Source of the DNA: Dulcicalothrix desertica PCC 7102
GTDB lineage: Bacteria > Cyanobacteriota > Cyanobacteriia > Cyanobacteriales > Nostocaceae
Length of the DNA stretch: 64,000 nt
Direction of reading: 5' to 3'
Assembly: GCF_003991905.1 (NCBI RefSeq)
Contig: NZ_RSCL01000027.1
Location: 1 to 64,000 of the forward strand
Below the pieces are notes generated by a model. That model did not search any database. It was not told the DNA's origin and was given only the letters and a program-made list of their open reading frames with translations. The position numbers were made by a program, and so were the translations under genes. Shown one piece after another: positions 1-64,000 of this stretch. The first letter of the stretch is position 1. The number at the start of each line of letters is the position of its first letter.

Positions 1-70
1 TTGTATTTTTTAGTTGTGTTGTTATATATTTAAAAGTATAGCACAACACCCCAAAACTAATGACACGGAC

Positions 71-245
71 TACTAGTGGTCTGTGTCATAAGTTTTGGTA
101 GGTTGGTTTGCAACGGATGTAACGGATGTAACGGATGAGTTATTCGTCAAAAATATAGATTTTGTTATCTAAAATTACCTATCCGTTACATCCGTTTCAC
201 ATCCGTTGCTAGCCTACCCACCAAATTTAATGACATGAACTAGTA
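71..245. mobile_element. MITE-like element, copy A (degenerate)
   Basis: The outer ends form an imperfect inverted repeat: the left end begins TACTAGTGGTCTGTGTCATA and the right end reads ATGACATGAACTAGTA. Inside lies a second inverted pair made of the iterated unit aacggatgt, left arm 110-139 and right arm 181-209. A better-preserved copy with the same nested structure is at 61212-61399. There is no internal ORF, so any movement would need a transposase encoded elsewhere. Both layers of inverted repeat are visible; mobility is inferred. Confidence 0.6.
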
Positions 246-467
246 GTTACGCAAAACCAAGGGCGCCTTTATAAAAGCATTTGGTGCAATGGTTAGAGAA
301 GATTATCCATGTAACTTTGGACTGTTAGTATAGTTTTAGCAAATTTCTAAATTAACAAAAGTTAACTCAGTGGTTATTATTTCGATTATTCTTCTGGAGG
401 CTAAAATAGTATTTTAATACTGCAATTCCTTATTTGAGTTTTATGTTGCAACTACGAACCCGTTATT

Positions 468-1862
468 ATGGACTTAAATGAAAGGCACCGTCGTTGGCAA
501 CTAATTTTAGAATCAGGTACTGAAGGTGTGTTTGGCAAAACTTTAGATGATATTTCCCAGGCACGCGCGCAAGCTATTACATTTCTCTATGACCGGGAAT
601 ATAATTCCAAAGGTAATAAATCACGGAATATTCGTCCTGGCAGCTTGGGTACACAAAGAAAAGTCAGCAAACTTTCTAAAAGTGGGCAAAACAGTCACGC
701 GACACAAGAAGATAAACCATCTCAACAACAAGCAAAACAAACCGAAAATTTAAACAGTGATGGTTCCAGCGAAGCTTTGGCGCCTTCTCTTCAACAAAAA
801 TCAGAACAAGAAAATGGTAATAGTAGTGACAAGTTAGAACAAACTGGACAAGGAGAAGGACAAGGGCAAAGTGGGGATCAAAATTTTGTTCCACCTTTAG
901 ACCGTCAGGGAGGGATAGGACCATCTATATTAACGATTCCCGACTGGATTAATGCGATACACGAATTGTTTCCACAAAAAACTATTGAACGTTTGGAAAA
1001 GGATGCATTGGAACGTTACCAGCTTGAAGAAATGGTGACAAATCCAGATTTGCTAAGTCGCGCGCAACCAAGCCAAACTTTACTCAAAGCTGTACTACGT
1101 ACTAAGCATTTAATGAATCAAGAAGTGTTGGCAATGGCACGTCACTTGGTTAGAAAAGTAATTGAACAATTAATCGAGAAACTCGCGCAAGAAGTAAAAT
1201 CTCCGTTTATTGGTGCAGTTAACCGAAAAAGGTCTTTTCTAAAAGCTGCCAAGAACTTTGACGCTGATACTACTATTCGTCGTAATTTACAGTACTATGA
1301 CTTAGCAACCAAACGTTTGTACATTCAACAACCTTACTTTTTCTCTCGTGTCCGGCGCCATCTCGACCGTTGGCAAATTATTATTTTGGTTGATGAGTCA
1401 GGTAGTATGCTCGATAGTGTAATTCATGCAGCGGTAACGGCAGCAATATTCTTTGGCTTAAAACAAGTACGCACTCACCTTTGTTTATTCGACACTTCAA
1501 TAGTTGATGTTACTGAAGATTGTTCAGACCCAGTAGAAACAATCATGAAAGTACAGCTAGGTGGTGGGACAGATATTGGTAAAGCACTTGCTTACGCTGC
1601 TACTTTAGTTGAGAATCCCCGCAATACTATTGTGATATTAATTACAGATTTCTTTGAAGGGGCGCCTGTACAGCAATTACTCACCACTACTAAAAACTTA
1701 ATCGAAAGTGGCGTAACATTGCTGGGACTCGCGGCTTTAGATGAACAAGCTAATCCTAATTATGACCGTAACATAGCGCAACAAATGGTTAACCTTGGCG
1801 CCAGTGTTGGGGCAATGACTCCAGGAGAATTAGCTGAATGGGTAGCACAGAAGATACGGTAA
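468..1862 (+). CDS. VWA domain protein of the MoxR/VWA/SWIM type
   Basis: 464 aa. The C-terminal third is a von Willebrand A domain with an intact MIDAS: D309, S311 and S313 in VDESGSM, a Thr near 368 in GGGTDIG and an Asp near 394 in LITDFFEG. The N-terminus (NERHRRWQLILES) matches the start of VWA proteins encoded with a MoxR ATPase, a DUF5682 protein and a SWIM zinc-finger protein. Residues about 60-145 are Gln/Ser/Gly-rich and look disordered. A double-SWIM protein lies at 8554-10572, so the usual partners may be split by the intervening Cas6/CRISPR block. The MoxR partner would have to lie upstream of the window. These sets are thought to act as ATPase-driven assemblies, possibly in biological conflict; the role here is inferred. 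Confidence 0.85.
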   Translation: MDLNERHRRWQLILESGTEGVFGKTLDDISQARAQAITFLYDREYNSKGNKSRNIRPGSLGTQRKVSKLSKSGQNSHATQEDKPSQQQAKQTENLNSDGSSEALAPSLQQKSEQENGNSSDKLEQTGQGEGQGQSGDQNFVPPLDRQGGIGPSILTIPDWINAIHELFPQKTIERLEKDALERYQLEEMVTNPDLLSRAQPSQTLLKAVLRTKHLMNQEVLAMARHLVRKVIEQLIEKLAQEVKSPFIGAVNRKRSFLKAAKNFDADTTIRRNLQYYDLATKRLYIQQPYFFSRVRRHLDRWQIIILVDESGSMLDSVIHAAVTAAIFFGLKQVRTHLCLFDTSIVDVTEDCSDPVETIMKVQLGGGTDIGKALAYAATLVENPRNTIVILITDFFEGAPVQQLLTTTKNLIESGVTLLGLAALDEQANPNYDRNIAQQMVNLGASVGAMTPGELAEWVAQKIR

Positions 1863-1866
1863 ATTT

Positions 1867-1967
1867 GCAACGGATACAACGGATGTAACGGATAGGTTAT
1901 TTAAAAATAACCAAACTTTTTTTGTAACCAATCACTCATCCGTTACATCTGTTCATCATCCGTTGCC
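1867..1967. repeat. STRR hairpin (iterated aacggatgt, inverted pair)
   Basis: Directly after the VWA stop codon, gcaacggatacaacggatg is answered about 60 nt later by an inverted arm ending catccgttgc. It belongs to the same family as the core of the MITE-like elements and the units at 16521, 37772, 50549 and 56353. It is followed by a copy of the ctctgtgactctgtggtaaa repeat, which also occurs near 16565 and 63210. It could act as a transcript end for the VWA gene. Confidence 0.8.
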
Positions 1968-2041
1968 AATCTTCCCTCTGTGTCCTCTGTGACTCTGTGG
2001 TAAATATCTTTACCATCAAACCAGCTTATAATACGAAGAAA

Positions 2042-2776
2042 ATGATAGATAAACTAACTCAAGAGCAAGAAGCATTAATTCCTGTATATCAAGAAAAATG
2101 GAATAAAATTGCGCTATCAACAGAGAGTATAGATTTTAATAAGCTTAAAGCTGATATTGAAAAAGCTTGCAGTATACTGGGCGTTAATATTCCTAAAATA
2201 TCTTTTTACGAAAGCCCATATGCTGCATTTAAAGAAGACATAGTATACCCTTGTAGTGAATTTTTAAGTCAACTGCGCTCGCAAATTTTAATAAATCCGG
2301 CTGATAAAATTTCCTATTCATCAAAAGATTATTTAATAAATAACTTATATTTAAATCAAGACGTATGGCAGAAGTTAATACATGCACTAATGTTTATATA
2401 CGAAGTATTACAAGATAACCTTGATAATGGAGATGTGTTTATTAATGAAGATGCATATGGTTATAATGATGATTGTGGCACCACTTATTACTACCCTGAA
2501 ATATTAAGTCTTAATTGTAGTTATTTAGATTTTTGTATTTCTGTATTAGGTATTCCTCATAATCAAGAAATTTGGGAAGTTTATCAAGATATAATTACCA
2601 ATTGTGGTTGAATTTTTGAAGATTACAAAGGAGATTATATTGTTTGTAATCGCCCAGTAAAACTTTCTTTTGATAATCAATGTACTATCCACGCTGAAGG
2701 AGAAGCGGCTATTCAATACGCTGATGGTTATGCTATTTATGTATATCATGGTGTACGCATTGAATTGAAAGGGTAG
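2042..2776 (+). pseudogene. DUF6745-like gene, interrupted and truncated
   Basis: The first segment (to the TGA at 2609-2611) reads like the start of a DUF6745 protein: LTQEQEALIPVYQEKW, then FYESPYAAFKED. After the TGA the same frame continues with family sequence, IVCNRPVKLSFDN then IHAEGEAAIQYADG and YVYHGVRIE, to a stop at 2776. The family usually has a Trp where the TGA sits (NCGW), so a single TGG to TGA change is the simplest explanation. The C-terminal part expected after the YHGV motif is missing. I prefer the ATG at 2042; the earlier GTG at 1997 lies inside a dispersed repeat. Function of the family is unknown. Probably dead, or a short 189-aa product. Confidence 0.7.
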
Positions 2777-2981
2777 TTCTAAAAAGTAGATTATTGTACT
2801 CATGCAAACATTTTGTGTCGGCATCAGGGGTATCTACAATCGCTATTTATTTGCTAATTGGTAATAATGCGAACTATATTTGTGATTAACCTACAATCAT
2901 ATATGGAATAGTAGCATTTCCCCCTTTCTTAGGTCGCTTGTATCAAACCCAGAACATGTAGAATAAAGTTAATGAGTAAAA

Positions 2982-4106
2982 TTGCATCACATTGTGCCAA
3001 GAGTAATAGCAAAACCCAAACGAAAAACTCCTATTTGGTCAAAGAAAACTGAAATAGTCAGCTTGGCATTTGACCTGATTGCTTCTAAAGATGCCATACT
3101 TTACCCTCAGTACACTACAGGACTTCATGCTTGGTTTTTAGACCAAGTTCGCAGTATTGACCCAGATTTATCAGCTTATCTTCACGATGGACAGTCAGAA
3201 AAAGCGTTTACAATATCAAACCTTGAGGGAAATTTAATTGTTTCAGGACAGCATTTACATGCAATAGCAAACCAAAGCTATCGCTGGTACGTGACTGGAC
3301 TTTCTAAAGAATTAGTGCAATGTTTAGAGATTTGGTTGAAACAATTACCTTCAACTATTGCACTTAGGCATTGTCCTTTAGTAATTCAAAATTGTGAATT
3401 AGCACTACCTGCTACAACCTATCGTGAGTTATATAACGCTGAACTAATTAACCAAACTATAAAATTAAGTTTTGTAACTCCCACAAGTTTTAGGCGCCGT
3501 TCCCATCATTTCCCGTTACCAGTTCCCAGTACAGTATTTCAAAGCTACCTGCGGCGATGGAATAATTTTTCAGGCATGGAATTTGACTCAACAGAATTTA
3601 GTGATTGGGTAGAGAATAATGTAACCATAAATCGTCATCGCATTGCGTCAGAGAAAGTAGCAGCGGGTAAACGAGGAATGGTGACAGGGTTTACAGGTAT
3701 GGTGGAATTTGGATTATCTAGTAAAAGAGAGCCAAACCCAGAATTCGAGAAATTATATTACGCCTTATATAGACTGGCGCCGTATTGTGGAACAGGACAT
3801 AAAACAACATTCGGACTAGGGCAAACACGCGCTTGTTGGATAGAAGAAGAAACAATAGAAGCCCCATCATTACAAACTATATTGGCACAAAGAATAGAAG
3901 AACTAACAGAAAAATTCAGAATCCAACGCAAACGCACAGGAGGAGAACGCGCGGATTTAATAGCAGAAAAATGGGCAACAATATTAGCACGTAGAGAATT
4001 AGGAGAAAGTATAATTGCAATAGCCGAAGATTTAGAAATACCGTATGAAACCGCAAAAAGTTATTTAAAATTAGCACGACGCGCAATAAACGTAGGGGCG
4101 GGTTAA
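2982..4106 (+). CDS. cas6: CRISPR pre-crRNA endoribonuclease Cas6 with C-terminal HTH
   Basis: About 374 aa. RAMP-type Cas6: the Gly-rich segment GTGHKTTFGLGQTR at roughly residues 270-283 is the hallmark, preceded by FTGMVEFGLS. The last ~45 residues (ILARRELGES...IPYETAKSYLKLARRA) form a helix-turn-helix-like tail also seen in other cyanobacterial Cas6 proteins. Cas6 cuts repeat RNA 3' of a hairpin and leaves an 8-nt tag. The array at 6315-6496 has the matching hairpin and would leave ATTGAAAC. The start is uncertain: TTG at 2982 or GTG at 2994, since the ATG at 2972 is out of frame. No cas1, cas2 or effector genes are in the window. The last codons and stop come from a dispersed repeat. 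Confidence 0.85.
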   Translation: MHHIVPRVIAKPKRKTPIWSKKTEIVSLAFDLIASKDAILYPQYTTGLHAWFLDQVRSIDPDLSAYLHDGQSEKAFTISNLEGNLIVSGQHLHAIANQSYRWYVTGLSKELVQCLEIWLKQLPSTIALRHCPLVIQNCELALPATTYRELYNAELINQTIKLSFVTPTSFRRRSHHFPLPVPSTVFQSYLRRWNNFSGMEFDSTEFSDWVENNVTINRHRIASEKVAAGKRGMVTGFTGMVEFGLSSKREPNPEFEKLYYALYRLAPYCGTGHKTTFGLGQTRACWIEEETIEAPSLQTILAQRIEELTEKFRIQRKRTGGERADLIAEKWATILARRELGESIIAIAEDLEIPYETAKSYLKLARRAINVGAG

Positions 4107-4149
4107 CCCAAAATCCACACACATAAAACAATCAAACAAAACCCGCCCC
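4092..4149. repeat. GTAGGGGCGGGTT inverted repeat overlapping the cas6 stop
   Basis: The left arm gtaggggcgggttaaccc supplies the Cas6 C-terminus VGAG and its TAA stop; the right arm aaacccgcccc lies at 4138-4149. The same arrangement ends the SAM hydroxide adenosyltransferase gene (right arm 12047-12061 on the other strand). Confidence 0.75.
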
Positions 4150-4235
4150 AAACCCAGCCCCAAAAACGCATCAATCATAAACACATTATAGCGGCGCCAA
4201 TCATTAAGAGTAAGCCAAAAAATGAATTATCCTGC

Positions 4236-4345
4236 GGTGTCATGCTGAGGTACGAAGGGCGCAGTTTTCCCGTTATCCGTAAACGGAGTTTTCCCGCAGG
4301 GTAGGATATCCCGAAGGGTAGGGTAGCATCTCCGCGAGATTATAA
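4236..4345. repeat. GTCATGCTGAGG...ACGAAG dispersed repeat with variants
   Basis: Contains gtcatgctgaggtacgaag and then several short units (gttttcccg, cgaagggtag) ending in gcatctccgcgagatt. Related to the tandem repeat at 41389-41538 and the single unit near 6629. The rest of 4107-4570 shows no gene. Confidence 0.6.
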
Positions 4346-4570
4346 TTCAAGTTTTACAACAAAAGCGGATATGCTGATAAAAATGACTGGAGTCCGCTTT
4401 TAGCAAGTGAGAATCCTTTCGTGTAGTAATCAGCGTACTAATACGGACTATTAGCGTTAGATAAAACACTTCTTATTAATGCAAATGGCGCCTGCCAAAT
4501 CGAATAAAATAGAGTATTATTATATACCAATAAACTTTAAGGCTCAATTCGTATAGTACTTTTGCATTGC

Positions 4571-5305
4571 ATGAATAATTATTACTTTAGAATCTTTTCC
4601 ATAGCTTCAGTTATCACAATACTTATATTGCTAACTAGTAAAACATTACTGAGTAGTAATAATAAAGCTAACGAAAACCAATCTAATTCAACCGAAACAA
4701 TAAAAACAGAAAAGCCACAACAATCACAAGTAGAATTATCTCAACAAAAACAGTGGCGCCAACAATTATCTGTACTACAGCCAAATTTAAAAAAATACCA
4801 GCAAGATGGTAATATTACTCAAGAAATATCAACATTAAGTCAAATAGGTATTATTCATAACGAGCTAAATGAATATTCACAAGCATTAGAATATTTACAA
4901 TTAGCCCAAACGAAGCTCAACGCATCAAATTTGGCGCCAAGGGAAAAATCTTTTATGGAATCTGAGCTACTTGTTGGTTTAGGAACTATTTATGCTGACC
5001 AAGGAAATTATCCTCAAGTTTTAGAAATTACAAGAAAAATATCTCAGTCTAGCTCTTTAAGTATAGGTGATTTGGGTAGCAATGCAAAACCTACACCAGA
5101 CAAAAAGCAACCGCCAGAAGTAAATATAAGAAAAGATGCTTATACACTTTATAGCATCGCAACCACACAACAAAAACGCGGTAAAGTTCGTGAAGCATTA
5201 CGCACTGCTGAAGAAGTATTAAAAATGCTCAGAACAGTAAATGAGAAAAACGGCGAACAAGAAGTTACTAATTTTATTAATACTCTGCGTCAGCAATTAC
5301 AGTAA
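4571..5305 (+). CDS. membrane-anchored TPR-like protein
   Basis: 244 aa from the ATG at 4571; an in-frame TTG nine bases earlier is less likely. One N-terminal hydrophobic segment (residues ~8-27, ASVITILILLTSKTLL) acts as an anchor or uncleaved signal. A Gln/Asn/Ser-rich linker follows, then helical repeats of TPR character (ITQEISTLSQIGIIHNELNE, YSQALEYLQLAQTKL, YADQGNYPQVLEI). It is probably a periplasm-facing scaffold of unknown partner. It stands alone on its strand between cas6 and the CRISPR array, with no sign of belonging to the CRISPR system. Confidence 0.7.
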   Translation: MNNYYFRIFSIASVITILILLTSKTLLSSNNKANENQSNSTETIKTEKPQQSQVELSQQKQWRQQLSVLQPNLKKYQQDGNITQEISTLSQIGIIHNELNEYSQALEYLQLAQTKLNASNLAPREKSFMESELLVGLGTIYADQGNYPQVLEITRKISQSSSLSIGDLGSNAKPTPDKKQPPEVNIRKDAYTLYSIATTQQKRGKVREALRTAEEVLKMLRTVNEKNGEQEVTNFINTLRQQLQ

Positions 5306-5439
5306 CTCTATTCTCAAAATATAAATAAAAAAGATAGAAGTTGAAATTTACATCAATCAACTTCTATCAAACCTTTTACATGCATTATACAAATATAGCC
5401 TTCAAGCATCTAACTATCTAGCTAGAATTACTTTGCACC

Positions 5440-5661
5440 TTAGCCGTTCAACATAACATCAGGGCATCGTCTACGACAAACTTTTTTACCATTGATAATT
5501 TCACAGATTAAAACAGGGTATCCACCTCCGTTACACTGTGCAATTAACTGTTGAGGTTTTAAGTTTGATGAGGTTTGGGCTACAACTGGAATTACATTTA
5601 GTAATAGGGTAGTTGCAGTTGACAAGAACGCAGCAAAACTAAAAATTTTTGACTTTTTCAT
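5440..5661 (-). CDS. small secreted cysteine-containing peptide
   Basis: 73 aa from MKKSKIF. A clear signal peptide (KKSKIFSFAAFLSTATTLLLN, then VVAQ) is followed by a short mature part with four cysteines: CNGGGYPVLIC and KKVCRRRC. The upstream in-frame ATG at 5679 would only add MFVRLT before the charged n-region, so I prefer 5661. Two disulfides are plausible. No family recognised; could be a secreted signalling or metal-binding peptide. Convergent with the preceding TPR gene. Confidence 0.6.
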   Translation of the reverse strand: MKKSKIFSFAAFLSTATTLLLNVIPVVAQTSSNLKPQQLIAQCNGGGYPVLICEIINGKKVCRRRCPDVMLNG

Positions 5662-5679
5662 GGTCAATCTCACAAACAT

Positions 5680-6314
5680 TGTATGTTTAATAGATTTGTA
5701 AGTTGTTATCCTTACCCATCTAAACGTTTACATGTTTGGCTATTCAGGTTTATGCAACTTATTCAATATAAACAGGCGCCTTATAGGTTTACACAAAGGC
5801 TCAAGATGACTAGCACCCTCCCAATGCTGATGATTTCAAATATCTGGCTTATTCCAAACCTTAGTCCTAGGTTGGTGTAGAAGAACGTAAACGTTTCTCA
5901 AGCAGCCTACGCATTCTCACTAGACCGCGACTTCGTTATTTATTATCCTGAGAATGGGAACGGCGCCGTGTGTTAAATTTATTTCTAAGAAGTCTTATTA
6001 AATAAACACATTTTGCTTCGGGCGCCATTTTTAATAAATCATAAGCCCGTAGCGATACATCTTCCATTACTGTGTTTTTTCCTAAGTACGATATACTTTT
6101 AAGTAGCTTATATTTTGGCGGCTCGAAGCGGGAGCTAAAACCTAGGGGGTTCTGCCAAAATGCTCAGAACCTAGACAACATAATATTTACAGCAATTCAG
6201 TATTTATAATAAGTGAGAAATTGTTTCAATACTGGCGCCTGAAATGGCATCTTTTTTTAGTCCTGCCAAAACCTACTCTCAGAAGCTTATTCTACGGTGG
6301 TTACAGGCGCCGGG
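5680..6314. other. non-coding stretch, probable CRISPR leader at its 3' side
   Basis: AT-rich with no convincing ORF. A hairpin is formed by ctagggggttct (6142-6153) and agaacctag (6166-6174), with TTCTGCCAAAAT between. Similar short stem-loops precede arrays in other cyanobacteria. The 140 bp before the first repeat would be the leader if the array is read on the + strand. Confidence 0.45.
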
Positions 6315-6496
6315 GTTCTTACCACTACTTCTCCGTGAGGAGATTGAAACCTCTCTTCGTTATGCCGAATTGCATGACAAGGCTCTGTTCTTACCACTAC
6401 TTCTCCGTGAGGAGATTGAAACAACTTTATTAGCAACATCTTTCGGATTGCGGTCAGATAGTTCTTACCACTACTTCTCCGTGAGGAGATTGAAAC
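6315..6496 (+). CRISPR. short CRISPR array: three identical 36-nt repeats, two spacers
   Basis: Exact 36-nt repeats lie at 6315-6350, 6387-6422 and 6461-6496, with spacers of 36 nt (6351-6386) and 38 nt (6423-6460). Each repeat contains the hairpin CTCC-GTGA-GGAG and ends GGAGATTGAAAC, which fits Cas6 cleavage leaving an ATTGAAAC tag and sets the direction as +. A degenerate repeat follows at 6697-6732. Cas6 is 2.2 kb upstream; no adaptation or effector genes are visible. Confidence 0.95.
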
Positions 6497-7142
6497 TTGT
6501 TAGCACGATGATTATTAGCCGTTTGTTGGGTTACGCAAAGCCTCCACCCAACCTACAAATTTTCTTAACCGAGCAGTATTGTATACTCAAAACGGCTTAA
6601 AACTATACTTTTTATGCAAACGTAAACCTTTAAGATGCTTCGTTCCTCAGCATGACAAAGTTCATTTTTTACCCGTTTGCAGTATATCAGTTCCGAGTTT
6701 CTTACTACCACTTGTCCGTAAGGAGATTGAAAGATTACGAACGTAGCTTCAATCTTTAGTAATTACACGAACAATTTATGATTAGCGCTCCTGTATCTTT
6801 ATACCTTTATACTCATTATTTATTGCTACTTTGTACTTACGCTAACAATATTATTAGCGTGTGCTGAAAGCAGATATCAACGTGGTTCTGTTCCAAAAAA
6901 AGGCGCCAATGTTAGAAAAGCAGGTATCAATGGGTATTCTAATATTAGAATGCAAAGATTACTTCACTTTTAAGCGTGCAAGCGCATAAAAATGACGTAA
7001 GAAATTGTCAAAAAATCCCCTCTAACCCCGTGAATTCGGGAAAAAAAGAGCATTTTAGTCTCATTATTAAGGGGAAAAAAAGATAATTCTTAGCCCCCCT
7101 TATTAAGGGGGGTTGGGGGGATTATAACTTTTAAATAAAACT
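6497..7142. other. non-coding tail of the CRISPR region with inserted dispersed repeats
   Basis: After the last intact repeat come pieces of dispersed repeats: gttgggttacgcaaagcctc, then agatgcttcgttcctcagca near 6632. A degenerate CRISPR repeat follows at 6697-6732 (cttactaccacttgtccgta, ending ggagattgaaag). Further on, around 7016-7125, is a ccccttattaagggg-type hairpin repeat like the one at 49645. No gene seen. Confidence 0.6.
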
Positions 7143-8453
7143 GTGCTTAACTCTCAAAACAATTCCCAAAACAACCATCCTCTACCACCTGGATACTCCA
7201 TTCGTCTTGCAACAGACGAAGATATTCGCAAGCTAAATAATAATATCAATATACCGATTTTAATCGGTACATTTTTAGGTTGCTTAGTCATCTCAATTCC
7301 AATTATTCAAATTGTTATTCAACAAAGCTTGCAGAATTGGGAAAACATGCAGAGAGCTATATTATATGAGACTGGAACGCGAAGAAACACACCAACTATT
7401 GAAGATTTGTATCAAATTATTATTAACTTAGGTATAGATAAATTTTTCTTAGGAATTACCACAAGTCTTGCAATTGGACGTGGTATTTATTTATTATTAC
7501 AGTCACTTTTCCCACAATCAAAGCACAAATTTCAACGTTGGGTTGCTGAATATAAAGGTAAAATAATCGGACAGGCAATACTTGAAAGAAAGCGTAGTTA
7601 CACATTACTTATATATATATGTGTAAATTCTAGCCATTGGTGGCAAGGTATTGGTTCTTGCTTAGTATGGAATAGTATAAAAGATGCAAAAAAGCCACTT
7701 TATTTAACATGTAGACCAGGACTAAAACCTTTTTATCAACGCTTTGGGTTTGTTTCAGTACCTAATTTTGAGCAACCAGTAGAGTTTAGACGATACAATC
7801 TTGGTTGTGTCATGGTACTGCTTAATAAAGCTATTTTACCATTAGAACGGCGCCAATCTCAGTATCCATTACCTGCTAATCATTCAATTACCAGCTTTGA
7901 CAACATCTGGATGCGATGGCAAGTGTATAAACAATTATGGTCAAGTCAAGTATTTAAACAGTGGCGCTTCTATATCTTAAACTTTATAGCTGTAATATAC
8001 ATACCTTTAATTTTAATTCTTGTAGCTATTTGGAATATACTTATCACCTGGGATATTTCCTGGTTAGCTGGTATAATTAGCATTATTGCACTTTTAACAC
8101 CAATATTTACCATCTTTATATATTGGCAAGAATGGAGAGTCGAAATAAATAACAATACAGTTGCTTATGCTCACTTATCATGTCGTTTAAAATACTCCAT
8201 CCTTTACTGTTTGTATGCAGAAAATAGCCCCCTTCTTCAACAAATTAGTCAAGCCTTTTTAGAGCGATTAAGTCGAAGAATTCAATTACCTATATACCTA
8301 GTTTGCTCACGTCAAGAAGCTAAATTATATACCCAGCTAGGTTTTTTTCCAATCAGTCAGCAACTCTTACCATTTGAACTACAAATTATCCGCTTTCAAC
8401 ATTACGTTGCACTTAAATATACGGCGCCTATAAATACGCAAACTGAACAATAA
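7143..8453 (+). CDS. membrane protein with two GNAT-like halves
   Basis: 436 aa, GTG start. The first half begins like a GNAT acetyltransferase (YSIRLATDEDIRKL), is interrupted by membrane segments (IPILIGTFLGCLVISIPIIQ and a weaker second), then resumes with WVAEYKGKIIGQAIL and the acetyl-CoA loop WWQGIGSCLVW, ending PFYQRFGFVSVP. The second half repeats the plan: two strong membrane segments (FYILNFIAVIYIPLILILVA; IISIIALLTPIFTIFIYW), then VEINNNTVAYAHL and LYTQLGFFPI. It lacks the QxxGxG loop, so it is probably catalytically dead. It looks like an internal duplication that kept one active site. Substrate unknown. It lies 100 bp upstream of the SWIM gene on the same strand. Confidence 0.75.
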   Translation: MLNSQNNSQNNHPLPPGYSIRLATDEDIRKLNNNINIPILIGTFLGCLVISIPIIQIVIQQSLQNWENMQRAILYETGTRRNTPTIEDLYQIIINLGIDKFFLGITTSLAIGRGIYLLLQSLFPQSKHKFQRWVAEYKGKIIGQAILERKRSYTLLIYICVNSSHWWQGIGSCLVWNSIKDAKKPLYLTCRPGLKPFYQRFGFVSVPNFEQPVEFRRYNLGCVMVLLNKAILPLERRQSQYPLPANHSITSFDNIWMRWQVYKQLWSSQVFKQWRFYILNFIAVIYIPLILILVAIWNILITWDISWLAGIISIIALLTPIFTIFIYWQEWRVEINNNTVAYAHLSCRLKYSILYCLYAENSPLLQQISQAFLERLSRRIQLPIYLVCSRQEAKLYTQLGFFPISQQLLPFELQIIRFQHYVALKYTAPINTQTEQ

Positions 8454-41363: not shown

Positions 41364-41388
41364 ACATTTAGTAGTGTGAAAATTTTAG

Positions 41389-41538
41389 AGATGCTTCGTT
41401 CCTCAGCATGACAATTGAAAGATGCTTCGTTCCTCAGCATGACAATTGAGAGATGCTTCGTTCCTCAGCATGACAATTGAGAGATGCTTCGTTCCTCAGC
41501 ATGACAATGGTGGAGATGCTTCGTTCCTCAGCATGACA
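41389..41538. repeat. five tandem copies of a ~31-bp unit
   Basis: Five copies of agatgcttcgttcctcagca followed by tgacaatt, with only small changes at the joints. Single units occur near 6632 and, inverted and altered, near 4240. It stops 5 bp before the tex stop codon. Confidence 0.9.
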
Positions 41539-41543
41539 TTATT

Positions 41544-43703
41544 TTATTGTTTTGCGGCTTTCATTGATAAACCGATGCGTTTGAGTTTTTCGTTGACTTC
41601 CATGACTCGAACTTTGACGACTTGTCCGACTTTGACTATTTTCTTAGGGTCGTCTACAAATCTGTCGGCTAGTTGGGATATATGTACTAACCCGTCTTGG
41701 TGAACACCGACATCGACAAAGGCGCCAAAGTTAGCGACATTAGTAACAACACCTTCTAATTCCATTCCTACTTTGAGGTCGGTAATTTCTTTGATACCTT
41801 CTTTAAAGGTGGCATATTTAAATTCAGCACGTGGGTCACGTCCTGGTTTCTCTAGTTCGCTAAGGATATCACGCAGCGTTGGTTCTCCAATAGTATCAGT
41901 AAGGTATTTTTTCAAACCTGTTTTTTTCAGGTTTTCGGCAATTTGTGTTACCTGGTTTATTGGAACTTTGAGGTCAGATGCTATATTTTCTACTAATTTG
42001 TAACTTTCTGGGTGTACGGCAGTATTATCTAAAGGATTTTCACCACCCCTTATTCGTAAAAAACCTGCTGCTTGTTCAAAAGCTTTTGGTCCAAGTTTGG
42101 GAACTTTCAATAACTGGCGCCGATTTTTAAATGTACCGTTAGCATCACGATAAGCGACTATATTATTAGCTACTGCTGATGTAATGCCCGAAACAAAAGT
42201 TAATAGTTGACTCGAAGCAGTGTTTAAGTCTACACCCACGTAGTTTACACAGCTTTCTACAGTTTCTTCGAGCTTTTTCTTTAATAGTTTCTGGTCTACG
42301 TCGTGTTGATATTGTCCCACTCCAATTGATTTAGGGTCAATTTTGACTAGTTCTGCGAGTGGGTCTTGCAGGCGCCGACCTATACTAATGGCGCCGCGCA
42401 CGGTAACATCAAGGTCGGGGAACTCTTGCCCAGCTAGTTTGCTTGCCGAATATATAGATGCTCCCGATTCGTTTACTATTACTTTGACGGGTTTACGGTC
42501 AATTGTTTTGAGTACATCACCAATAAATTCGTCGGTTTCGCGTGATGCTGTACCGTTACCAATAGCTATCAACTCTATTTTGTATTTCTCAATCAAATTT
42601 TTGACCGACTGGGCAGCTTTCACACGTCCATCGGCGCCTGTATGAGGGAAAATAGCCTGATATTCTAAAAATTTTCCCGTTTGGTCAAGAATCGCGACTT
42701 TACAACCAGTTCTAAAACCTGGGTCTACCGCCATTGTTGGTTTCATTCCCGCAGGCGCCGATAATAACAACTCGCGTAAGTTTGTTTCAAAGGTCTTTAT
42801 CGACTCAATATCAGCATAAAGCTTTTTCTCGGCAATAACTTCATTTATCAACGAAGTTTTCATCAAGCGGTTAAATGCATCTTTGAGCATTTCTTGATAA
42901 AACGCGCGTATTGGACGGTGCTTTGTTTTAATTTCTTGAGATTCTATATACGAAAGTACTGTATCTTCGTCGTAAGATATTTCAAAACTCAATATCCCTT
43001 CATTTTCGCCACGACACAGCGCTAATAAGTTGTGAGGTGCAATATTTCTAACTTTTGCGCTAAAGCTACGATACATCTCAAATTTTGTCGTTCCTTCGGC
43101 GTGTTCGTCTTTGATGTGCGAGACAAACGTACCTTCGTCTAACAAATAATCGCGTAAATATGCCCGCAATTCTGCTTTATCCGCAACTTCCTCTGCTAAA
43201 ATATCAGCGGCGCCTTTGAGTGCATCGTCACCACTCTTTACACCTTTTTCTTCTGAAATATATTTAACTGCTTCAAGTTCAAGAGGAACAAGCGGCCCAT
43301 TTTTGACATTTAAAGACTTAATAAATTCAGCCAAAGATTCTAGACCTTTTTCACGGGCAATAGTCGCACGTGTACGACGCTTAGGACGATAAGGTAAATA
43401 TAAATCTTCTAACTCATTTTTTTGCAAACAAGTCTCTATTTTCGCTTTTAGCTCAGGGGTTAGCTTACCTTGTTCGTTAATTGAATTAAGTATCGCCGCT
43501 TTTCGCTCTTCTAACTCTGTTAAATAACTATATCTATCTGATAAGTCCCGTAACTGCACTTCGTCCATCTCACCAGTGCGTTCCTTACGGTAGCGTGCAA
43601 TAAAGGGAATCGTCGCACCTTCAGCGAAAAGTTCAAGCGCACTCTCAATTTGAAAGGGTTTAAGGTTAAGTTCGCTTGCTAGAGTCTGTGGAATATTAAG
43701 CAT
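41544..43703 (-). CDS. tex: Tex family RNA-binding transcription accessory protein
   Basis: 719 aa from MLNIPQTLASELN; the longer frame to 43778 runs into a dispersed hairpin repeat, so I reject it. Order: Tex N-domain (LFAEGATIPFIARYRKERTG), YqgF-like RNase H fold (AVDPGFRTGCKVAILDQTG), helix-hairpin-helix region (FVSGITSAVANNIVAYRD, LLKVPKLGPKAFEQAAGFLR), and a C-terminal S1 domain (LEGVVTNVANFGAFVDVGVH). Binds RNA and transcription complexes. Complete. Confidence 0.95.
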   Translation of the reverse strand: MLNIPQTLASELNLKPFQIESALELFAEGATIPFIARYRKERTGEMDEVQLRDLSDRYSYLTELEERKAAILNSINEQGKLTPELKAKIETCLQKNELEDLYLPYRPKRRTRATIAREKGLESLAEFIKSLNVKNGPLVPLELEAVKYISEEKGVKSGDDALKGAADILAEEVADKAELRAYLRDYLLDEGTFVSHIKDEHAEGTTKFEMYRSFSAKVRNIAPHNLLALCRGENEGILSFEISYDEDTVLSYIESQEIKTKHRPIRAFYQEMLKDAFNRLMKTSLINEVIAEKKLYADIESIKTFETNLRELLLSAPAGMKPTMAVDPGFRTGCKVAILDQTGKFLEYQAIFPHTGADGRVKAAQSVKNLIEKYKIELIAIGNGTASRETDEFIGDVLKTIDRKPVKVIVNESGASIYSASKLAGQEFPDLDVTVRGAISIGRRLQDPLAELVKIDPKSIGVGQYQHDVDQKLLKKKLEETVESCVNYVGVDLNTASSQLLTFVSGITSAVANNIVAYRDANGTFKNRRQLLKVPKLGPKAFEQAAGFLRIRGGENPLDNTAVHPESYKLVENIASDLKVPINQVTQIAENLKKTGLKKYLTDTIGEPTLRDILSELEKPGRDPRAEFKYATFKEGIKEITDLKVGMELEGVVTNVANFGAFVDVGVHQDGLVHISQLADRFVDDPKKIVKVGQVVKVRVMEVNEKLKRIGLSMKAAKQ

Positions 43704-50658: not shown

Positions 50659-52659
50659 TTATCTACCTACCAACTTGTCGCGTAAGGTTTTAATTTTGTC
50701 GCGAAACTTAGCTGCTTCTTCAAATTCTAAGTTCTTGGCAGCATCCTTCATTTGCGCTTCTAATTTGGTAATTAAATCAGGAATGCTTTCTAATGGTATT
50801 TCGTCAATGTGTTCTTCGACTATCTGTAATTCCTGGGAATTCAGGCGCCGCGAAACTTCTAAGAATGATAAAATTGCATTACTCGATTTTTTCTTGGCTA
50901 TTGGTTGCGGTGTAATGCCGTGCATCTTATTATGTGCCATTTGAATACCACGGCGCCGTTCGGTTTCTTCGATGGTTTTTAACATGCTGTTAGTAAGGTT
51001 ATCAGCGTACATTATCGCTTGCCCACGTATATGACGCGCAGCTCGACCTACGGTTTGAATTAAAGAACGTTCCGCACGTAGAAATCCTTCTTTATCAGCA
51101 TCTAAAATTGCCACTAACGAAACTTCAGGTAAATCTAAACCTTCCCGCAGTAAGTTTACACCTACCAATACATCAAATTTTCCATCACGTAAGTCTTGGA
51201 TAATTTCAATACGTTCAATGGAATTAATTTCTGAGTGTAAATATCTAACGCGAATACTATTATCTTGCAAATACTCGGTTAAATCCTCAGCCATTCGTTT
51301 AGTTAAAGTCGTAACTAATACCCGTTCTTGTAGGTCTACACGGTCTTTAATTTCGCCTAATAAATCATCAATTTGACCATTACTAGGACGGACAACAATT
51401 TCTGGGTCAAGCACTCCAGTCGGACGAATAATTTGTTCAGCGACATTATCTTCAGAGATTCCTAACTCCCAATCCCCAGGAGTTGCTGAGACAAAAATAC
51501 ACTGATTGACTTTCTGCCAAAATTCCTCTGATTTTAAAGGACGGTTATCAGCAGCACTTGGTAAACGAAACCCATGTTCGATTAGTACTTTTTTACGCGC
51601 TTGGTCGCCATTATACATACCGCGAATCTGAGGTACTGTAACGTGAGACTCATCTATTACTAGCAACCAATCTTTAGGAAAATAATCAATTAAACATTCA
51701 GGTGGTTCTCCTGCAAGTCTCCCAGCTAAATGACGTGAGTAATTCTCGACACCGTTACAATAACCAACTTCGCGCAACATTTCTAAATCGTAACGGGTAC
51801 GCTGGTCAATGCGCTGTGCTTCTAACAACTTATTTTGTTCTTCTAGTTCCAGTTTACGTGCTTTAAGTTCAGCCGCTATATCATTAATAGCTACCTCTAA
51901 TCTATCTTCGGGTGTAACGAAGTGACGTGCTGGATACAAATTTACTGCTTGTAAACTCTGTAATATTTCCCCTGTTACTGGGTCAACATAACGAATTGCA
52001 TCAACTTCATCCCCAAAAAACTCAATGCGAATAATTCTATCTTCGTATGCAGGTCCAATTTCGAGAACATCACCCCGAACCCTAAACTTACCCCGACCCA
52101 TTTCAATATCGTTACGGGTATATTGAACAGACACAAGGTCTTTCAAAATTTCTCGTTGGTCTACTTCCATCCCGACTTGAAACGGAATTGCAGCTTTGAG
52201 ATATTCATTAGGGATACCCAAACCATATATACAGCTAATCGAGGCAACAACAATAACATCGTTCCGTTCAAACAGCGAACGAGTCGCTGAGTGTCGTAAC
52301 ATATCTATTTCGTCATTAATCGAAGCTGTCTTTTCTATAAATGTATCGCTGACAGGAATATAAGCTTCTGGCTGATAATAATCGTAATAACTAACAAAAT
52401 ATTCAACAGCGTTATTTGGGAAAAACTCTCGTAATTCGTTACATAACTGCGCTGCCAACGTTTTATTGTGTGCTAAAACTAACGTTGGTTTACCTACCTT
52501 TTCTATTACTGACGCGATTGAAAACGTTTTACCAGTCCCAGTGGCGCCGAGCAACGTTTGGTACATATTACCAGCATTTACAGATTTAACCAATCGCTCA
52601 ATAGCGTGCGGTTGGTCACCAGTTGGTTGAAAGGGTGCTTGAAGATTAAACTCTTTCAT
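50659..52659 (-). CDS. uvrB: excinuclease ABC subunit B
   Basis: 666 aa from [19 protein letters not shown]. Walker [15 protein letters not shown], the beta-hairpin region [12 protein letters not shown], helicase motifs VIDESHVT and [24 protein letters not shown], and the C-terminal UVR domain ([20 protein letters not shown]). Works with UvrA and UvrC in nucleotide excision repair. The reading frame extends 19 codons further up, but the family starts at this Met. Confidence 0.97.
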
Positions 52660-52744
52660 ATATTCGTACTTAAGTACTATGAATACCCTACATAATAGTA
52701 GCGAATGTACCACCAAGAGCGCTTGCTAAAAATACGGTATTTTC

Positions 52745-53634: not shown

Positions 53635-53644
53635 AGTTTGAATA

Positions 53645-59597: not shown

Positions 59598-60638
59598 ATG
59601 AATGCACATCGAGGAACTGCTGTGCTTAGTTCTGCAACTTTAAAAATGCAGCCAGCGCCAACAGGATTTACCGAAAGTAATCGTCTGCGGCTATTTTCTG
59701 GCTCTGCTAATTTACAACTTTCCCAAGAAGTTGCCCGCTATTTGGGCATGGATTTGGGACCGATGATTCGCAAACGTTTTGCGGATGGAGAACTATATGT
59801 CCAAATACAGGAATCAATACGGGGTTGTGATGTTTACCTAATCCAGCCTTGTTGCAATCCTGTCAACGACAACTTGATGGAACTCCTAATCATGATTGAT
59901 GCTTGTCGTCGTGCTTCCGCGCGGCAAGTCACGGCAGTAATTCCGTACTATGGATATGCACGCGCCGACCGTAAAACGGCAGGACGCGAATCAATCACCG
60001 CTAAATTGATTGCAAACCTAATTACGGAAGCAGGCGCCAATCGGGTTTTGGCGATGGACTTGCACTCTGCTCAAATTCAGGGTTATTTCGACATACCTCT
60101 CGACCATGTATACGGCTCGCCAGTACTTTTAGACTATCTGACGAGCAAAAAACTTGAGGATTTAGTCGTAGTATCACCTGACACAGGTGGTGTTGCAAGA
60201 GCGCGCGCATTTGCGAAAAAGCTCAATGATGCCCCGTTGGCAATCATTGACAAACGTCGTCAAGCGCACAACGTCGCTGAGGTATTAAATGTAATCGGTG
60301 ATGTTAAAGGCAAAACAGCCGTACTAGTCGATGATATGATAGACACCGGCGGTACCATCACCGAAGGCGCCAAACTGTTGCGCGAAGAAGGCGCGAGACA
60401 AGTATACGCTTGTGCGACCCATGCGGTGTTCTCACCACCAGCAATCGAGCGTTTATCAAGCGGACTATTTGAAGAAGTAATCGTCACCAATACAATACCG
60501 ATGTTAGGCGCCGACACTTCTATGGAATCGCTTCGTAAACGCTTCCCACAACTCGTAGTTCTGTCAGTGGCGAATCTACTCGGAGAAACGATTTGGCGCA
60601 TACACGAAGATAGCTCTGTAAGTAGTATGTTCCGATAA
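59598..60638 (+). CDS. prs: ribose-phosphate pyrophosphokinase
   Basis: 346 aa. RLRLFSGSANLQLSQEVARYLG, the ATP site PYYGYARADRKTAGRE, catalytic DLHSAQIQGYFDIPLDHVYG, and the PRPP loop VLVDDMIDTGGTI are all present. Makes PRPP from ribose-5-phosphate and ATP for nucleotide, His and Trp synthesis. The first ~20 residues are a non-conserved extension; a start at Met17 is possible. Confidence 0.97.
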   Translation: MNAHRGTAVLSSATLKMQPAPTGFTESNRLRLFSGSANLQLSQEVARYLGMDLGPMIRKRFADGELYVQIQESIRGCDVYLIQPCCNPVNDNLMELLIMIDACRRASARQVTAVIPYYGYARADRKTAGRESITAKLIANLITEAGANRVLAMDLHSAQIQGYFDIPLDHVYGSPVLLDYLTSKKLEDLVVVSPDTGGVARARAFAKKLNDAPLAIIDKRRQAHNVAEVLNVIGDVKGKTAVLVDDMIDTGGTITEGAKLLREEGARQVYACATHAVFSPPAIERLSSGLFEEVIVTNTIPMLGADTSMESLRKRFPQLVVLSVANLLGETIWRIHEDSSVSSMFR

Positions 60639-60691
60639 CAGCCTTTTTGTATGTGAGCTAGCCTACAAAAAGGACAAAACGCTTTAATGCA

Positions 60692-60732
60692 CAAGGAAAG
60701 TAAGGGCAATAACCTTGTTCCTGCTTTCCCTT
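60692..60732. terminator. hairpin downstream of prs
   Basis: aaggaaagtaagggcaa is partly answered by ttgttcctgctttccctt. Stem is imperfect and the T-tract weak. Likely the end of prs. Confidence 0.4.
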
Positions 60733-60810
60733 CCTCAATTATCTACGTAAAACTGTATAGAATTTATTCATAATTCATATTTGTTTACTTTTGTTTATAG
60801 TTATAGCCCC

Positions 60811-61056
60811 TTAGTTGCATCGGCACCACAAGCGAAAGCACCATTGGTAAACCTCATCAATTTCGGAGGCCTTCGCAGTCCCAAAAATGGCGCCCAAACG
60901 GTAACCCAAATTTGTCCAATTCATCTGTTGCAGCGTCTTCTCAGTATATACCTCACCATTGGCACCGTGATGCCAACCAGCAAAAAATCTAGCCCGACGA
61001 TAATCTTCTAATCCATGTTCATCACTAAATTGGAACGTTATAGCTGTCATATCCAC
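60811..61056 (-). CDS. conserved hypothetical protein, 81 aa
   Basis: Reads MTAITFQFSDEHGLEDYRRA then FFAGWHHGANGEVYTEKTLQ, NWTNLGYRLGAIFG and VYQWCFRLWCRC. I recall similar small proteins in other filamentous cyanobacteria, without a function. Convergent with prs. Confidence 0.6.
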   Translation of the reverse strand: MDMTAITFQFSDEHGLEDYRRARFFAGWHHGANGEVYTEKTLQQMNWTNLGYRLGAIFGTAKASEIDEVYQWCFRLWCRCN

Positions 61057-61211
61057 GCATCAAAAACTAAGCATCCCCAGAATATTGGTGTCGAAGCCAT
61101 ATAAAAAGCCAAAATTATACAAAGCATCACTTCTTGTGGAACAAAATCCCAGATGTGCATTATAAGTAATAATTTTTACTATAGATACTACTGAGGCACA
61201 GAGAAGCAACG

Positions 61212-61399
61212 TAGTGGTTCATGTCATAAGTTTTGGGGAGTTGGTTAGCAACGGATACAACGGATGTAACGGATGATTTATTTGATACAAACAAAATTTT
61301 TTTACGGCGCCTCCTTTAAACGAATCAATTATCCGTTACATCCGTTCATCATCCGTTGCCAATATCCCTACCCACCAAAACTTTTGACATGAACCACTA
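61212..61399. mobile_element. MITE-like element, copy B (well preserved)
   Basis: Terminal inverted repeats of about 25 bp: tagtggttcatgtcataag at the left and cttttgacatgaaccacta at the right, with one mismatch over the first 25 bases. Inside is an STRR inverted pair (gcaacggatacaacggatg ... catcatccgttgcc) around an AT-rich loop containing a GGCGCC. No ORF. Copy A is at 71-245. Confidence 0.8.
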
Positions 61400-61445
61400 G
61401 GTTATGTGAAACCCAATATTTCCTTAAAAATGACACTTAAGCAAA

Positions 61446-62768
61446 TTAATCATCACAGCTTTCAAGTTTCAATGCTATGGCAACTAACTCTACCCCACCT
61501 CTCCACTCATCCCATAATCTTGGAAGATGACCTTTAGGAGCATCAAGGCTAAATTTAATTTGAGAATAATAAGACCATTCTCTACTAGTCCAACTTGCAA
61601 ACAAAATTTGGTGTTGCCTTGTACTTCTCCAACCTACAGTTTCTCCAAATTTTACCCAAGCTTCTTCATCAAACTTACCAATACAACCTCCACTATTCCT
61701 CCAAATCTCCTTTTGAACACTAAAACCAAAATGTCCATTACTGCACTTTACCCATAACGTGTCAAGAATACAAATATCTTGCGTGTTTATATCTAAAATA
61801 CTTTCATAAGTAATATAATTTTCTACTTCTCTATTGCATAGCTTGAGCAGTATATTTTTTGTCTCTTTATCAGCTTCTTTCCATTTTCCATCTACTAATA
61901 GAGTTTCTAAAGAGCTATAATTATTTGCTTGTATTGAGATATGAGAGAATATATTTGTATAAATATCCTCAGAATCACTATTTAATAGCTGTAACCATGC
62001 TTTAATTGATTGAGGACGATTTTCTGGAACTAGCTCCAAACCTTTTAAAATAGCGTCATTTACTTTATTACTCAACCTTGGATTAAGTTCTTTGGGTGAC
62101 GCAAGCGCGCAGTCCATCATTCTAGAAATAGAACCTTCTGGCTCTTGCCCCGTTAAAACTTTATACAAAGTTGCAGCTAAAGAATATACATCTGTAAAAG
62201 CACCACGTTTTGCACGAGGATTATATTGCTCTGGTGGAGCATAAAAAGGTGTTACATATTCTGTATGAGTTTGGGTTACATTTGGATTAAATTCACGTGC
62301 GATACCAAAATCTATTAAAACAGCTTCTGACTTATTTGCCCTAATAATTATATTATTTGGTTTCACATCTCTATGCAACAAACCTTTATTATGAACCATT
62401 TCTAATGCTTCACCAATCTGATTAATGTAAAATAAAGCTTCCTGCTCTGGCAACGGCAAGTTTTTATAAATTAACTCTTCACCTTCAACATATTCCATTA
62501 CAATGCCCCACAAATCATCAACTTTTATGCATTCGTAAACTTTGACAATATGAGGGTGGACGCATTTAGCAAGTTTTAGCGCTTCGTTGACGAAATCTTG
62601 CTGACTTTTGCCAAAATCGTCGCCATCAGTTAGTTTTAAAGTTTTGATAACTACTTGATGACCAGTGTTACTTTTGGCAAGATAAGTAACACCAAAGCCA
62701 CCTTGCCCCAACTTTCTCTCGACTATATATTTTCCATTGTCCAATTGCTGTCCAGATTGCCAAAACAT
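61446..62768 (-). CDS. serine/threonine kinase with C-terminal GUN4 domain
   Basis: 440 aa. Kinase: GQGGFGVTYLAK, Lys in VVIKTLK, HRDVKPNNI and DFGIAREF. Residues ~280-435 form a GUN4 domain: LETLLVDGKWKEADKETKNI, ICILDTLWVKCSNGHFGFSVQK, then GETVGWRSTRQ. GUN4 domains bind Mg-porphyrins, so kinase control by tetrapyrrole state is plausible. No membrane helix. Kinase looks active. Confidence 0.92.
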   Translation of the reverse strand: MFWQSGQQLDNGKYIVERKLGQGGFGVTYLAKSNTGHQVVIKTLKLTDGDDFGKSQQDFVNEALKLAKCVHPHIVKVYECIKVDDLWGIVMEYVEGEELIYKNLPLPEQEALFYINQIGEALEMVHNKGLLHRDVKPNNIIIRANKSEAVLIDFGIAREFNPNVTQTHTEYVTPFYAPPEQYNPRAKRGAFTDVYSLAATLYKVLTGQEPEGSISRMMDCALASPKELNPRLSNKVNDAILKGLELVPENRPQSIKAWLQLLNSDSEDIYTNIFSHISIQANNYSSLETLLVDGKWKEADKETKNILLKLCNREVENYITYESILDINTQDICILDTLWVKCSNGHFGFSVQKEIWRNSGGCIGKFDEEAWVKFGETVGWRSTRQHQILFASWTSREWSYYSQIKFSLDAPKGHLPRLWDEWRGGVELVAIALKLESCDD

Positions 62769-62873
62769 AATTTACGTATAGTTTTATTGTCAATTATGTC
62801 TCATGATATGTTTATGTATTATACAGTACATATTCCATTAGGTAGGTTTACACTAACAGCGCTCAACAACGAT

Positions 62874-63177
62874 TTAAATACTATCCTCTTGTTTTTCTGC
62901 CACTTCAACAATTAATTTAAGACCTAATGCCGCTAACCATTCTCTAAGATGATATATAGCTTCATCCGCGCTTTGTGCAAGCAATGTATCTAATTTTTAT
63001 TGGTGCTGTTTAACTTGAACAGGCGCCATGTTATTTTGTTCACCGAGAGCTTCAGCAATGTCGGTTAATGCGGATTTTAGGAGTTATGTAAGCTGCTGCT
63101 AACTCAGGCTCTTTTTTCAAAGATTTAATAAGATACTCGTTATAACTATCACTCGTCGGCATTTTGTCGTTTTTCAT
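62874..63177 (-). pseudogene. broken HigA-like antitoxin/regulator gene
   Basis: The start MPTSDSYNEYLIKSLKKEPE and the later parts (ALTDIAEALGEQNN, LDTLLAQSADEAIYHLREWL, ALGLKLIVEVAEK) match a family of small cyanobacterial antitoxin/HTH regulators. They lie in two frames: a frameshift falls after AAAYITP, and an in-frame TAA interrupts after QVKQHQ. No toxin partner remains next to it. Confidence 0.7.
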
Positions 63178-63243
63178 AATATTAAGCCAAATTTATACCT
63201 TCTCTATGTCCTCTGTGTCTCTGTGGTAAAGAAAATTACTTAT

Positions 63244-63271
63244 ACTGCACAGGCAAGATACCTGTGCTACA
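63244..63271. repeat. ACTGCACAGGCAAGATACCTG repeat
   Basis: A tgcacaggcaagatacctgt hairpin unit. Relatives at 16603-16628 and inside the 3' end of the second permease (26303-26331). A tctgtgtctctgtggtaaag unit precedes it near 63210. Confidence 0.7.
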
Positions 63272-63484
63272 AGATTACATATATGTTACAATGGATGGGT
63301 AATTAGCGGCGACTTTACTTTAATTTCAAAAAAGTCTTGTCAAAGCAAACAATGGTGAAGTATTAAGGTTAGAATATAATTGTTAAGGCTTCTTTACAGA
63401 GTTACACAAAAATTCCGTATTCTGTTACTACAGCCGTGTAAACAATATCTGAAAACCCCCTCTTAAATTATTGGAACGCGCACT

Positions 63485-64000
63485 ATGACGCTCCCTATCC
63501 GTAACGTCGCTATTATCGCCCACGTAGACCACGGCAAAACCACCTTGGTTGATGCACTTTTGAAACAGTCCGGCATTTTCCGCGAAGGCGAAGACGTTCC
63601 GGACTGCGTTATGGACTCTAATGACCTAGAGCGCGAGCGTGGCATTACTATTCTTTCTAAAAATACAGCGGTTAAATATAAAGAGACGCTGATTAATATT
63701 GTTGATACTCCTGGACACGCGGACTTCGGTGGCGAAGTTGAGCGCGTACTTGGCATGGTTGATGGTTGTATCTTAATTGTGGATGCTAACGAAGGCCCAA
63801 TGCCTCAAACTCGTTTCGTGTTAAAAAAAGCACTCGAAAAGGGTTTACGTCCTATTGTTGTTGTTAACAAGATTGACCGTCCTCAAGCTGAACCACACAG
63901 CGCTACCGATAAAGTTCTTGATTTGTTTTTAGAACTCGGCGCCGATGATGACCAGTGTGATTTTCCATACTTATTTGCTTCAGGTTTAGCTGGGTTCGCT
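63485..64000 (+). CDS. typA: TypA/BipA ribosome-associated GTPase (5' part)
   Basis: 172 codons to the window edge; no stop. G1 AHVDHGKTT, switch I RERGITI, G3 [15 protein letters not shown] and G4 NKIDRP identify a translation GTPase of the TypA/BipA type. It binds ribosomes and is needed under cold or other stress. Starts at the ATG in cactATGACG. Continues outside the window. Confidence 0.95.

Follow-up and report, generated by a model that had tools for sequence, protein, structure and literature searches.

GGCGCC as an alternate highly iterated palindrome throughout a Calothrix genus with a likely orphaned GRCGYC methyltransferase

Introduction

Highly iterated palindromes (HIPs) are best known from HIP1 (GCGATCGC), a GC-rich palindrome that in other cyanobacteria is very dense, lies both inside and outside genes, and is linked in the literature with orphan methyltransferases. 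Here we describe a word that shares the first three of these properties, GGCGCC, in a 64,000-nucleotide stretch of Dulcicalothrix desertica PCC 7102 (contig NZ_RSCL01000027.1; hereafter the window), in the rest of that genome and across its genus. Unlike HIP1, GGCGCC is a different word associated with a different methyltransferase family, and HIP1 itself is nearly absent here. The closest described case is that of Elhai 2015 (PMC4390886), the sole report that we found in the open-licence PMC literature on GGCGCC as a HIP or in Calothrix. In the portion of that article used here, GGCGCC serves as alternate HIP in Calothrix PCC 7103 and in 19.3 kb of D253. Reported alongside it are two methyltransferases for GRCGYC, damage to a CGATCG methyltransferase and a strong depletion of GATC. 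The same portion proposes mismatch repair directed by GmeC, argues that HIP1 loss is a condition for an alternate HIP, considers a second copy of the GRCGYC methyltransferase possibly critical, and describes alternate HIPs as sporadic rather than confined to clades.

A second set of relatives is the BsaHI/HgiDI/HindVP restriction-modification systems, which target GRCGYC. According to the part of PMC2413257 consulted, M.BsaHI methylates the central C of this sequence. The candidate methyltransferase described below (B) is homologous to the methyltransferase found beside HindVP-family restriction endonucleases (REases) in other Nostocaceae-like genera. The genus differs from those systems in lacking such a REase and in being rich in one of the target words instead of avoiding it.

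Our genomes resemble PCC 7103 and D253, as far as the portion of Elhai 2015 extends, in the word, the genus name, the depression of both HIP1 and GATC, and the presence of GRCGYC methyltransferases. They depart from the sporadic picture given there in that the GGCGCC HIP occurs in all seven genomes searched of a genus, and they go beyond it in that the restriction partner is absent genus-wide. The GGCGCC HIP has thus already been described in outline, in 2015, from strains of the genus, and reading the word as a HIP is right but not new; what is new is the genus-wide spread, the likely orphaned GRCGYC methyltransferase without a restriction partner, and the substitution pattern within the genus.

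Results

GGCGCC in the window and the PCC 7102 genome

An earlier note on this DNA, made from the letters alone, had put GGCGCC at about 130 copies, one per roughly 490 bp, in genes and gaps alike, with three to four expected by chance at an estimated 39% GC, and had found no HIP1 octamer. The count is 131 in 64,000 bases (one per 490 bp; 103 in the 50 open reading frames (ORFs) used and 28 outside), the GC content is 38.35%, base composition predicts 3.2 copies, and neither GCGATCGC nor CGATCG occurs at all. A first-order Markov model predicts only 5.2 copies; the note had proposed a check against a Markov model. A maximal-order model expects 72.9, but its 5-mers are mostly fragments of GGCGCC themselves. 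Synonymous-codon permutation of the 50 ORFs, which preserves both protein sequence and codon usage, gave 5.5 ± 2.2 copies with a maximum of 12 in 300 shuffles, against the 103 observed. The spacing of the sites fits an exponential distribution (Kolmogorov-Smirnov p = 0.68). Of the other words related to the site, GACGCC and GGCGTC are absent from the window and GACGTC occurs once, compared with 11 copies of GGTGCC/GGCACC. The features are collected in Table 1.

Table 1. Features of the window and of the candidate methyltransferase
Feature	Position	Strand	Remarks
GGCGCC sites	1..64000	.	n = 131, of which 103 fall within the 50 ORFs used and 28 beyond them; first 262, last 63938
HIP1-free stretch, other GRCGYC words nearly absent	1..64000	.	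word counts
uvrB-like ORF	50659..52716	-	99% identical to the metagenome-assembled genome Calothrix sp. FI2-JRJ7 (L096); not part of the mechanism
Candidate methyltransferase B	G000:C4:441733-442671	-	outside the window; putative m5C methyltransferase, by homology

The excess extends to the whole genome: the assembly of PCC 7102 (G000; 11.42 Mb in 109 contigs) holds 19,393 copies, nowhere near chance, and a single copy of the reversed control word CCGCGG. A suggestion that the true unit is longer, TGGCGCCA, did not hold up. In 184 kb of the genome this form makes up 0.157 of the sites, barely over the 0.139 expected from independent flanks, the base to the left of GGCGCC being T in 0.37, A in 0.30, C in 0.24 and G in 0.09 of cases.

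GGCGCC throughout the genus

We searched 100 genomes: seven of the genus (g1, Calothrix; G000-G006), 53 of other genera of the family and 40 of other families of the order. All seven genus genomes carry 7,475-20,380 copies (1150-1711/Mb), compared with 0-530 copies (0-108/Mb) in the 53 and at most 2,493 copies in the 40. HIP1 mirrors this distribution, with 31-163 copies per genus genome (3.6-22.6/Mb) against 535-7,734 (50-1017/Mb) in the 53 others. The density that marks an alternate HIP, a GC-rich palindrome at about 1000-2000/Mb, is therefore reached by GGCGCC in all seven genomes, and HIP1 is low or nearly absent in each. Genome-wide and genus-wide, then, this Calothrix genus has GGCGCC as its alternate HIP, a reading that the earlier note had proposed for the lineage of the window. 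One of the genomes, G004, is probably PCC 7103 itself, since its HIP1 density is 14.1/Mb here and 14 in the portion of Elhai 2015 (PMC4390886) used.

The name Calothrix for the genus comes from matches outside the seven assemblies. AP025019 (Calothrix sp. PCC 7716) and AP018291 (NIES-4105) share stretches of 100% identity with plasmid contigs from G002 and G003, respectively, and the metagenome-assembled genome (MAG) of Calothrix sp. FI2-JRJ7 has 23 GGCGCC in 14.7 kb. Not every 'Calothrix' carries the trait: the MAG of L039 has 12 HIP1 and no GGCGCC in 12.6 kb. In 50 kb of each plasmid GGCGCC stands at 1280/Mb (L359, PCC 7716) and 620/Mb (L360, NIES-4105), against 1644 and 1511/Mb in the whole genomes. 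The NIES-4105 plasmid retains nine HIP1 and 48 GATC, and looks like younger DNA in which conversion is still under way.

Independent GGCGCC HIPs elsewhere were considered and rejected as a general feature: among 388 members of the class, high GGCGCC counts mostly accompany high counts of the reversed word. G311 (L353, L354), from another family of the order, has 9,489 GGCGCC in 3.8 Mb whilst three searched congeners have 304-343 copies. Word samples were taken from G311 (20 kb) and G067 (13 kb); in the former, at 56% GC, GGCGCC reaches 4.0-fold, AGCGCC/GGCGCT 6.3-fold and CGGCGCCG 25-fold the first-order expectation, possibly an independent iterated word of the RGCGCY type. Within the same family, G028 (L310, L312, L358) has only 535 HIP1 in 10.7 Mb and no evident substitute palindrome in 31.8 kb.

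A candidate methyltransferase without a restriction partner

The earlier note had pointed to a cognate orphan methyltransferase as something to look for, and a plausible candidate exists. The C5-cytosine (m5C) methyltransferases (PF00145) of the seven genomes were listed (9-17 matches each) and ORFs carrying the motif string were clustered, a procedure that includes neighbours and that missed B in G001, recovered by homology search. Two enzymes are present in all seven genomes: A (370 aa) and B (about 319 aa), with homology cut-offs of E ≤ 1e-60 and E ≤ 1e-50, respectively. B matches PF00145 at 223 bits and has the C5-cytosine methyltransferase domain with the TL motif and its conserved surroundings, as judged against the REase-linked homologues. 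It retains the target recognition domain (TRD) region of the REase-linked homologues, of the type RHPRxYxRR..PTIR..NRP; four of the 25 rows lacked the searched string, and neither G039 nor four fragments (G002, G006) were included in the alignment. The gene is under purifying selection (dN/dS 0.08-0.12 in five pairs). G000 and G001 have a single B match each, so the second copy that the portion of Elhai 2015 regards as possibly critical is not needed. In G006 the close copy of B is split between contig ends and lacks its middle part (C207, C29, C60), owing either to an assembly gap or to a real break; a different contig carries a further copy (83%) that is intact.

B sits between GHL10 and RuBisCO-like genes in G000, G001, G002 and G004; in G003 both neighbours are present with small ORFs between them, and in G005 only the RuBisCO-like gene (Pfam was run for G000 and the other genomes were matched by eye). 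No REase ORF adjoins B in any of the six genomes G000-G005, and a protein search and the PF09519 profile gave no HindVP-type REase in the seven genus genomes. Among the 53 genomes of other genera, 14 have B homologues and 12 a HindVP-family REase, all 12 with B; the REase adjoins B in 11 and is on another contig in G039. Seven of the 12 are full-length without an internal stop and the rest are split, partial or interrupted by stops, so that not all 12 are active. L201, the example studied, matches PF09519 from end to end (514.9 bits) and has WGKNQF, KNDKAFA, SPERRFD and an ExK, the motifs reported for BsaHI and its homologues in the part of PMC2413257 consulted.

Site counts bear on the target of B. 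The median GACGTC density is 0.92/Mb in the 12 genomes with B and REase and 18.65/Mb in the 39 without B (p = 1.4e-5, kinship ignored), that of GGCGCC is 0.64 against 5.33/Mb (p = 0.0024, kinship ignored), and HIP1 is equal between the two sets (p = 0.48). Within the genus GACGTC stands at 4.4-8.2/Mb. In three genus samples GACGCC is at 33-46/Mb, compared with 240-367/Mb for GACGCA/T/G, figures that rule out avoidance of GACGC (HgaI-like) behind the missing GACGCC. GGTGCC is commoner in genus samples (171-262/Mb) than in three outside samples (51-95/Mb). B appears to be a relative of the BsaHI/HindVP-type GRCGYC methyltransferases, likely orphaned in the genus, and from its homology and these site statistics GGCGCC is probably methylated by it at the central cytosine (GG-m5C-GCC).

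Conservation and substitution at the sites

We aligned 364 kb of G000 with stretches of the six other genus genomes, the species of the genus being 5-18% apart in aligned DNA. In each of the six pairwise comparisons GGCGCC was better conserved than the remaining all-GC hexamers; with G003 (86% identity), for example, 273/362 were kept against 429/899, and with G001 (82% identity) 175/316 against 273/811. For the window and G003, 53 of 66 aligned sites were kept, compared with 551 of 1219 hexamers with at least five G or C.

Synonymous losses were then counted by position, polarised and matched to the same codon elsewhere; a codon was used only where G003 was present and at least two ingroup genomes agreed. 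One ancestral site may count in up to five lineages, so p-values are nominal, and the two codon-matched runs overlap in that the 364-kb set contains the earlier data. Loss at C3 equalled the background (49/591 against 62/769) and at G4 was 14/218 against 114/1313, whereas loss was suppressed at C5 (0/197 against 107/1548; nominal p = 4e-6) and at C6 (11/575 against 47/984; nominal p = 0.0034). The contrast between C3/G4 and C5/C6 has a nominal p of 1e-5. In the deeper G000-G003 pair all four were reduced in sites relative to elsewhere: C3 14/167 against 139/429, G4 4/58 against 131/632, C5 0/55 against 146/608 and C6 2/158 against 127/520. In the same pair GGT in site context corresponds to GGC in the partner in 5/7 cases against 119/1740. 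Gains of GGCGCC on branches came from GGTGCC/GGCACC (3/32) and never from six other one-off words (0/163).

Our reading is that some force maintains GGCGCC at every position, while the central C undergoes additional T/C turnover. Such turnover fits methylation there, at the base methylated by M.BsaHI, and the C3/G4 versus C5/C6 contrast agrees with methylation of the central C of GRCGYC, which is known for M.BsaHI itself. C3 as an absolute C>T hotspot was rejected: a rate of 3.5% against 2.4% on a trinucleotide background vanishes with the codon-matched background.

Other words and repeats

GATC is strongly avoided: the window has six copies, and samples of the seven genus genomes show 0.10-0.39 of what a first-order model predicts. 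GGCC is also strongly avoided (nine in the window; 0.09-0.15 of expectation in samples of G000-G006). Among palindromic hexamers CGCGCG ranks second in over-representation, with 22 in the window against 5.0 expected and 3.8-8.4 times the expectation in samples of all seven genomes, and the 8-mer TACTAGGG occurs 13 times in the window against 0.6 expected. An interspersed repeat of about 150 bases (window about 41364-41546) has many copies of 80-100% identity across the genus genomes; among the matches listed, most are on the G002 chromosome.

Discussion

The explanation that we favour, with some reservation, combines an alternate HIP of the genus, predicted methylation by B and a repair-bias ratchet following the loss of HIP1. 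B, without a restriction partner, would methylate GGCGCC at the central C. HIP1 would have been lost first, its loss being a possible second condition beside B without the REase. A methylation-dependent mismatch-repair bias (the GmeC ratchet of Elhai 2015) would then turn one-off words into GGCGCC and keep them. Taken separately, the proposal that such a bias built and now holds GGCGCC after HIP1 loss is one that we put forward tentatively. That a defence methyltransferase lost its REase at the base of the genus and took over the HIP role, methyl-directed repair driving the formerly avoided GG-m5C-GCC to about 1500/Mb in HIP1's stead and maintaining it ever since, seems to us rather unlikely.

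Several observations weigh against this explanation. Having B but no HindVP gene does not suffice: despite B, GGCGCC reaches only 42.6/Mb in G027 and 0.5/Mb in G050, and HIP1 persists there at 1017 and 329/Mb, respectively. A is likewise present in all seven genus genomes, the methyltransferase survey covered m5C enzymes (PF00145), and the GRCGYC specificity of B is assigned by homology together with site statistics. All the site tests on B carriers ignore phylogeny, and the genomes are related; B carriers moreover have slightly less of the reversed word CCGCGG (p = 0.085 with the 12 genomes, p = 0.032 with all 14). GACGCC is low, at 41/Mb, in a sample of other genera without B too, and therefore its scarcity in the genus need not stem from B. 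Outside ORFs, conservation of GGCGCC was significant in one of five comparisons only, with 3-26 aligned sites each. Finally, the codon-matched background leaves no absolute C>T excess at C3.

The main alternative to the ratchet is direct selection for GGCGCC or its methylated form, as a strand signal for mismatch repair or in chromosome organisation or recombination, with no repair bias. Conservation far above that of other hexamers, synonymous positions included, and persistence of the word in seven of seven genomes that lie 5-18% apart would both be expected of it, and the portion of Elhai 2015 (PMC4390886) used here argues that selection acts on HIP1 itself. Around 1700 selected sites per Mb would, however, be a large load. 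If any methylated GRCGYC would do, one would expect tolerance of GGCGTC, but no change is rarer than C5>T. GGCGTC is still a GRCGYC target, and its being the least tolerated word speaks against selection for methylated sites of whatever sort. Two readings accommodate it: Elhai's ratchet, in which GGCGTC is driven further to GGCGCC, and selection favouring the symmetric word. A version of direct selection acting on GGCGCC alone is compatible with the C5 result. We regard direct selection as a real possibility, albeit one about which we are doubtful.

Less probable is that another methyltransferase is the partner: A with a changed specificity, another m5C enzyme, or an m4C or m6A enzyme. A is the sole cluster found in all seven genomes by ORF clustering, and each genome has many PF00145 genes. 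Of the 53 genomes from other genera, however, 34 also have A (one a partial copy) and show no excess of GGCGCC, for which reason we rejected it as the specific partner, and of the two enzymes in all seven genomes it is B that has the GRCGYC site statistics.

Over-repair of T:G mismatches by a Vsr-type endonuclease, as has been proposed for Dcm sites in Escherichia coli, could lift GGCGCC from GGTGCC, and GGTGCC is indeed both the main decay word (57 of 81 losses) and the main source word (three of three gains). It is very improbable here, and we rejected it: no Vsr family match was found in any of the 42 genomes searched (of the 64 used elsewhere), the genus included, while the control genomes did give matches, other T:G glycosylases not having been searched for. 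Vsr over-repair would also leave the suppression at C5 and C6 unexplained. The production of GGCGCC by chance from codon or dipeptide usage (Gly-Ala, GGC GCC) can be dismissed, since the synonymous shuffles refute it even though GGC.GCC is the commonest reading phase (60 of the 103 ORF sites in the window), and since sites are frequent outside ORFs as well (28 in 14.8 kb of the window; 1177/Mb against 1943/Mb inside ORFs in the 364 kb of G000).

The presence of the GGCGCC HIP in all seven genomes searched of the genus contradicts the view of alternate HIPs as sporadic and not persisting in clades. If the reading in which an orphaned defence methyltransferase took over the HIP role is true, a genome-wide repair or strand mark can switch its word without losing its function. 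A genus with a swapped HIP word makes the purpose of HIP sites easier to test: with a candidate methyltransferase in B, a restriction version of the system in other genera, and species whose aligned DNA differs by 5-18%, the contributions of methylation, repair bias and selection become separable.

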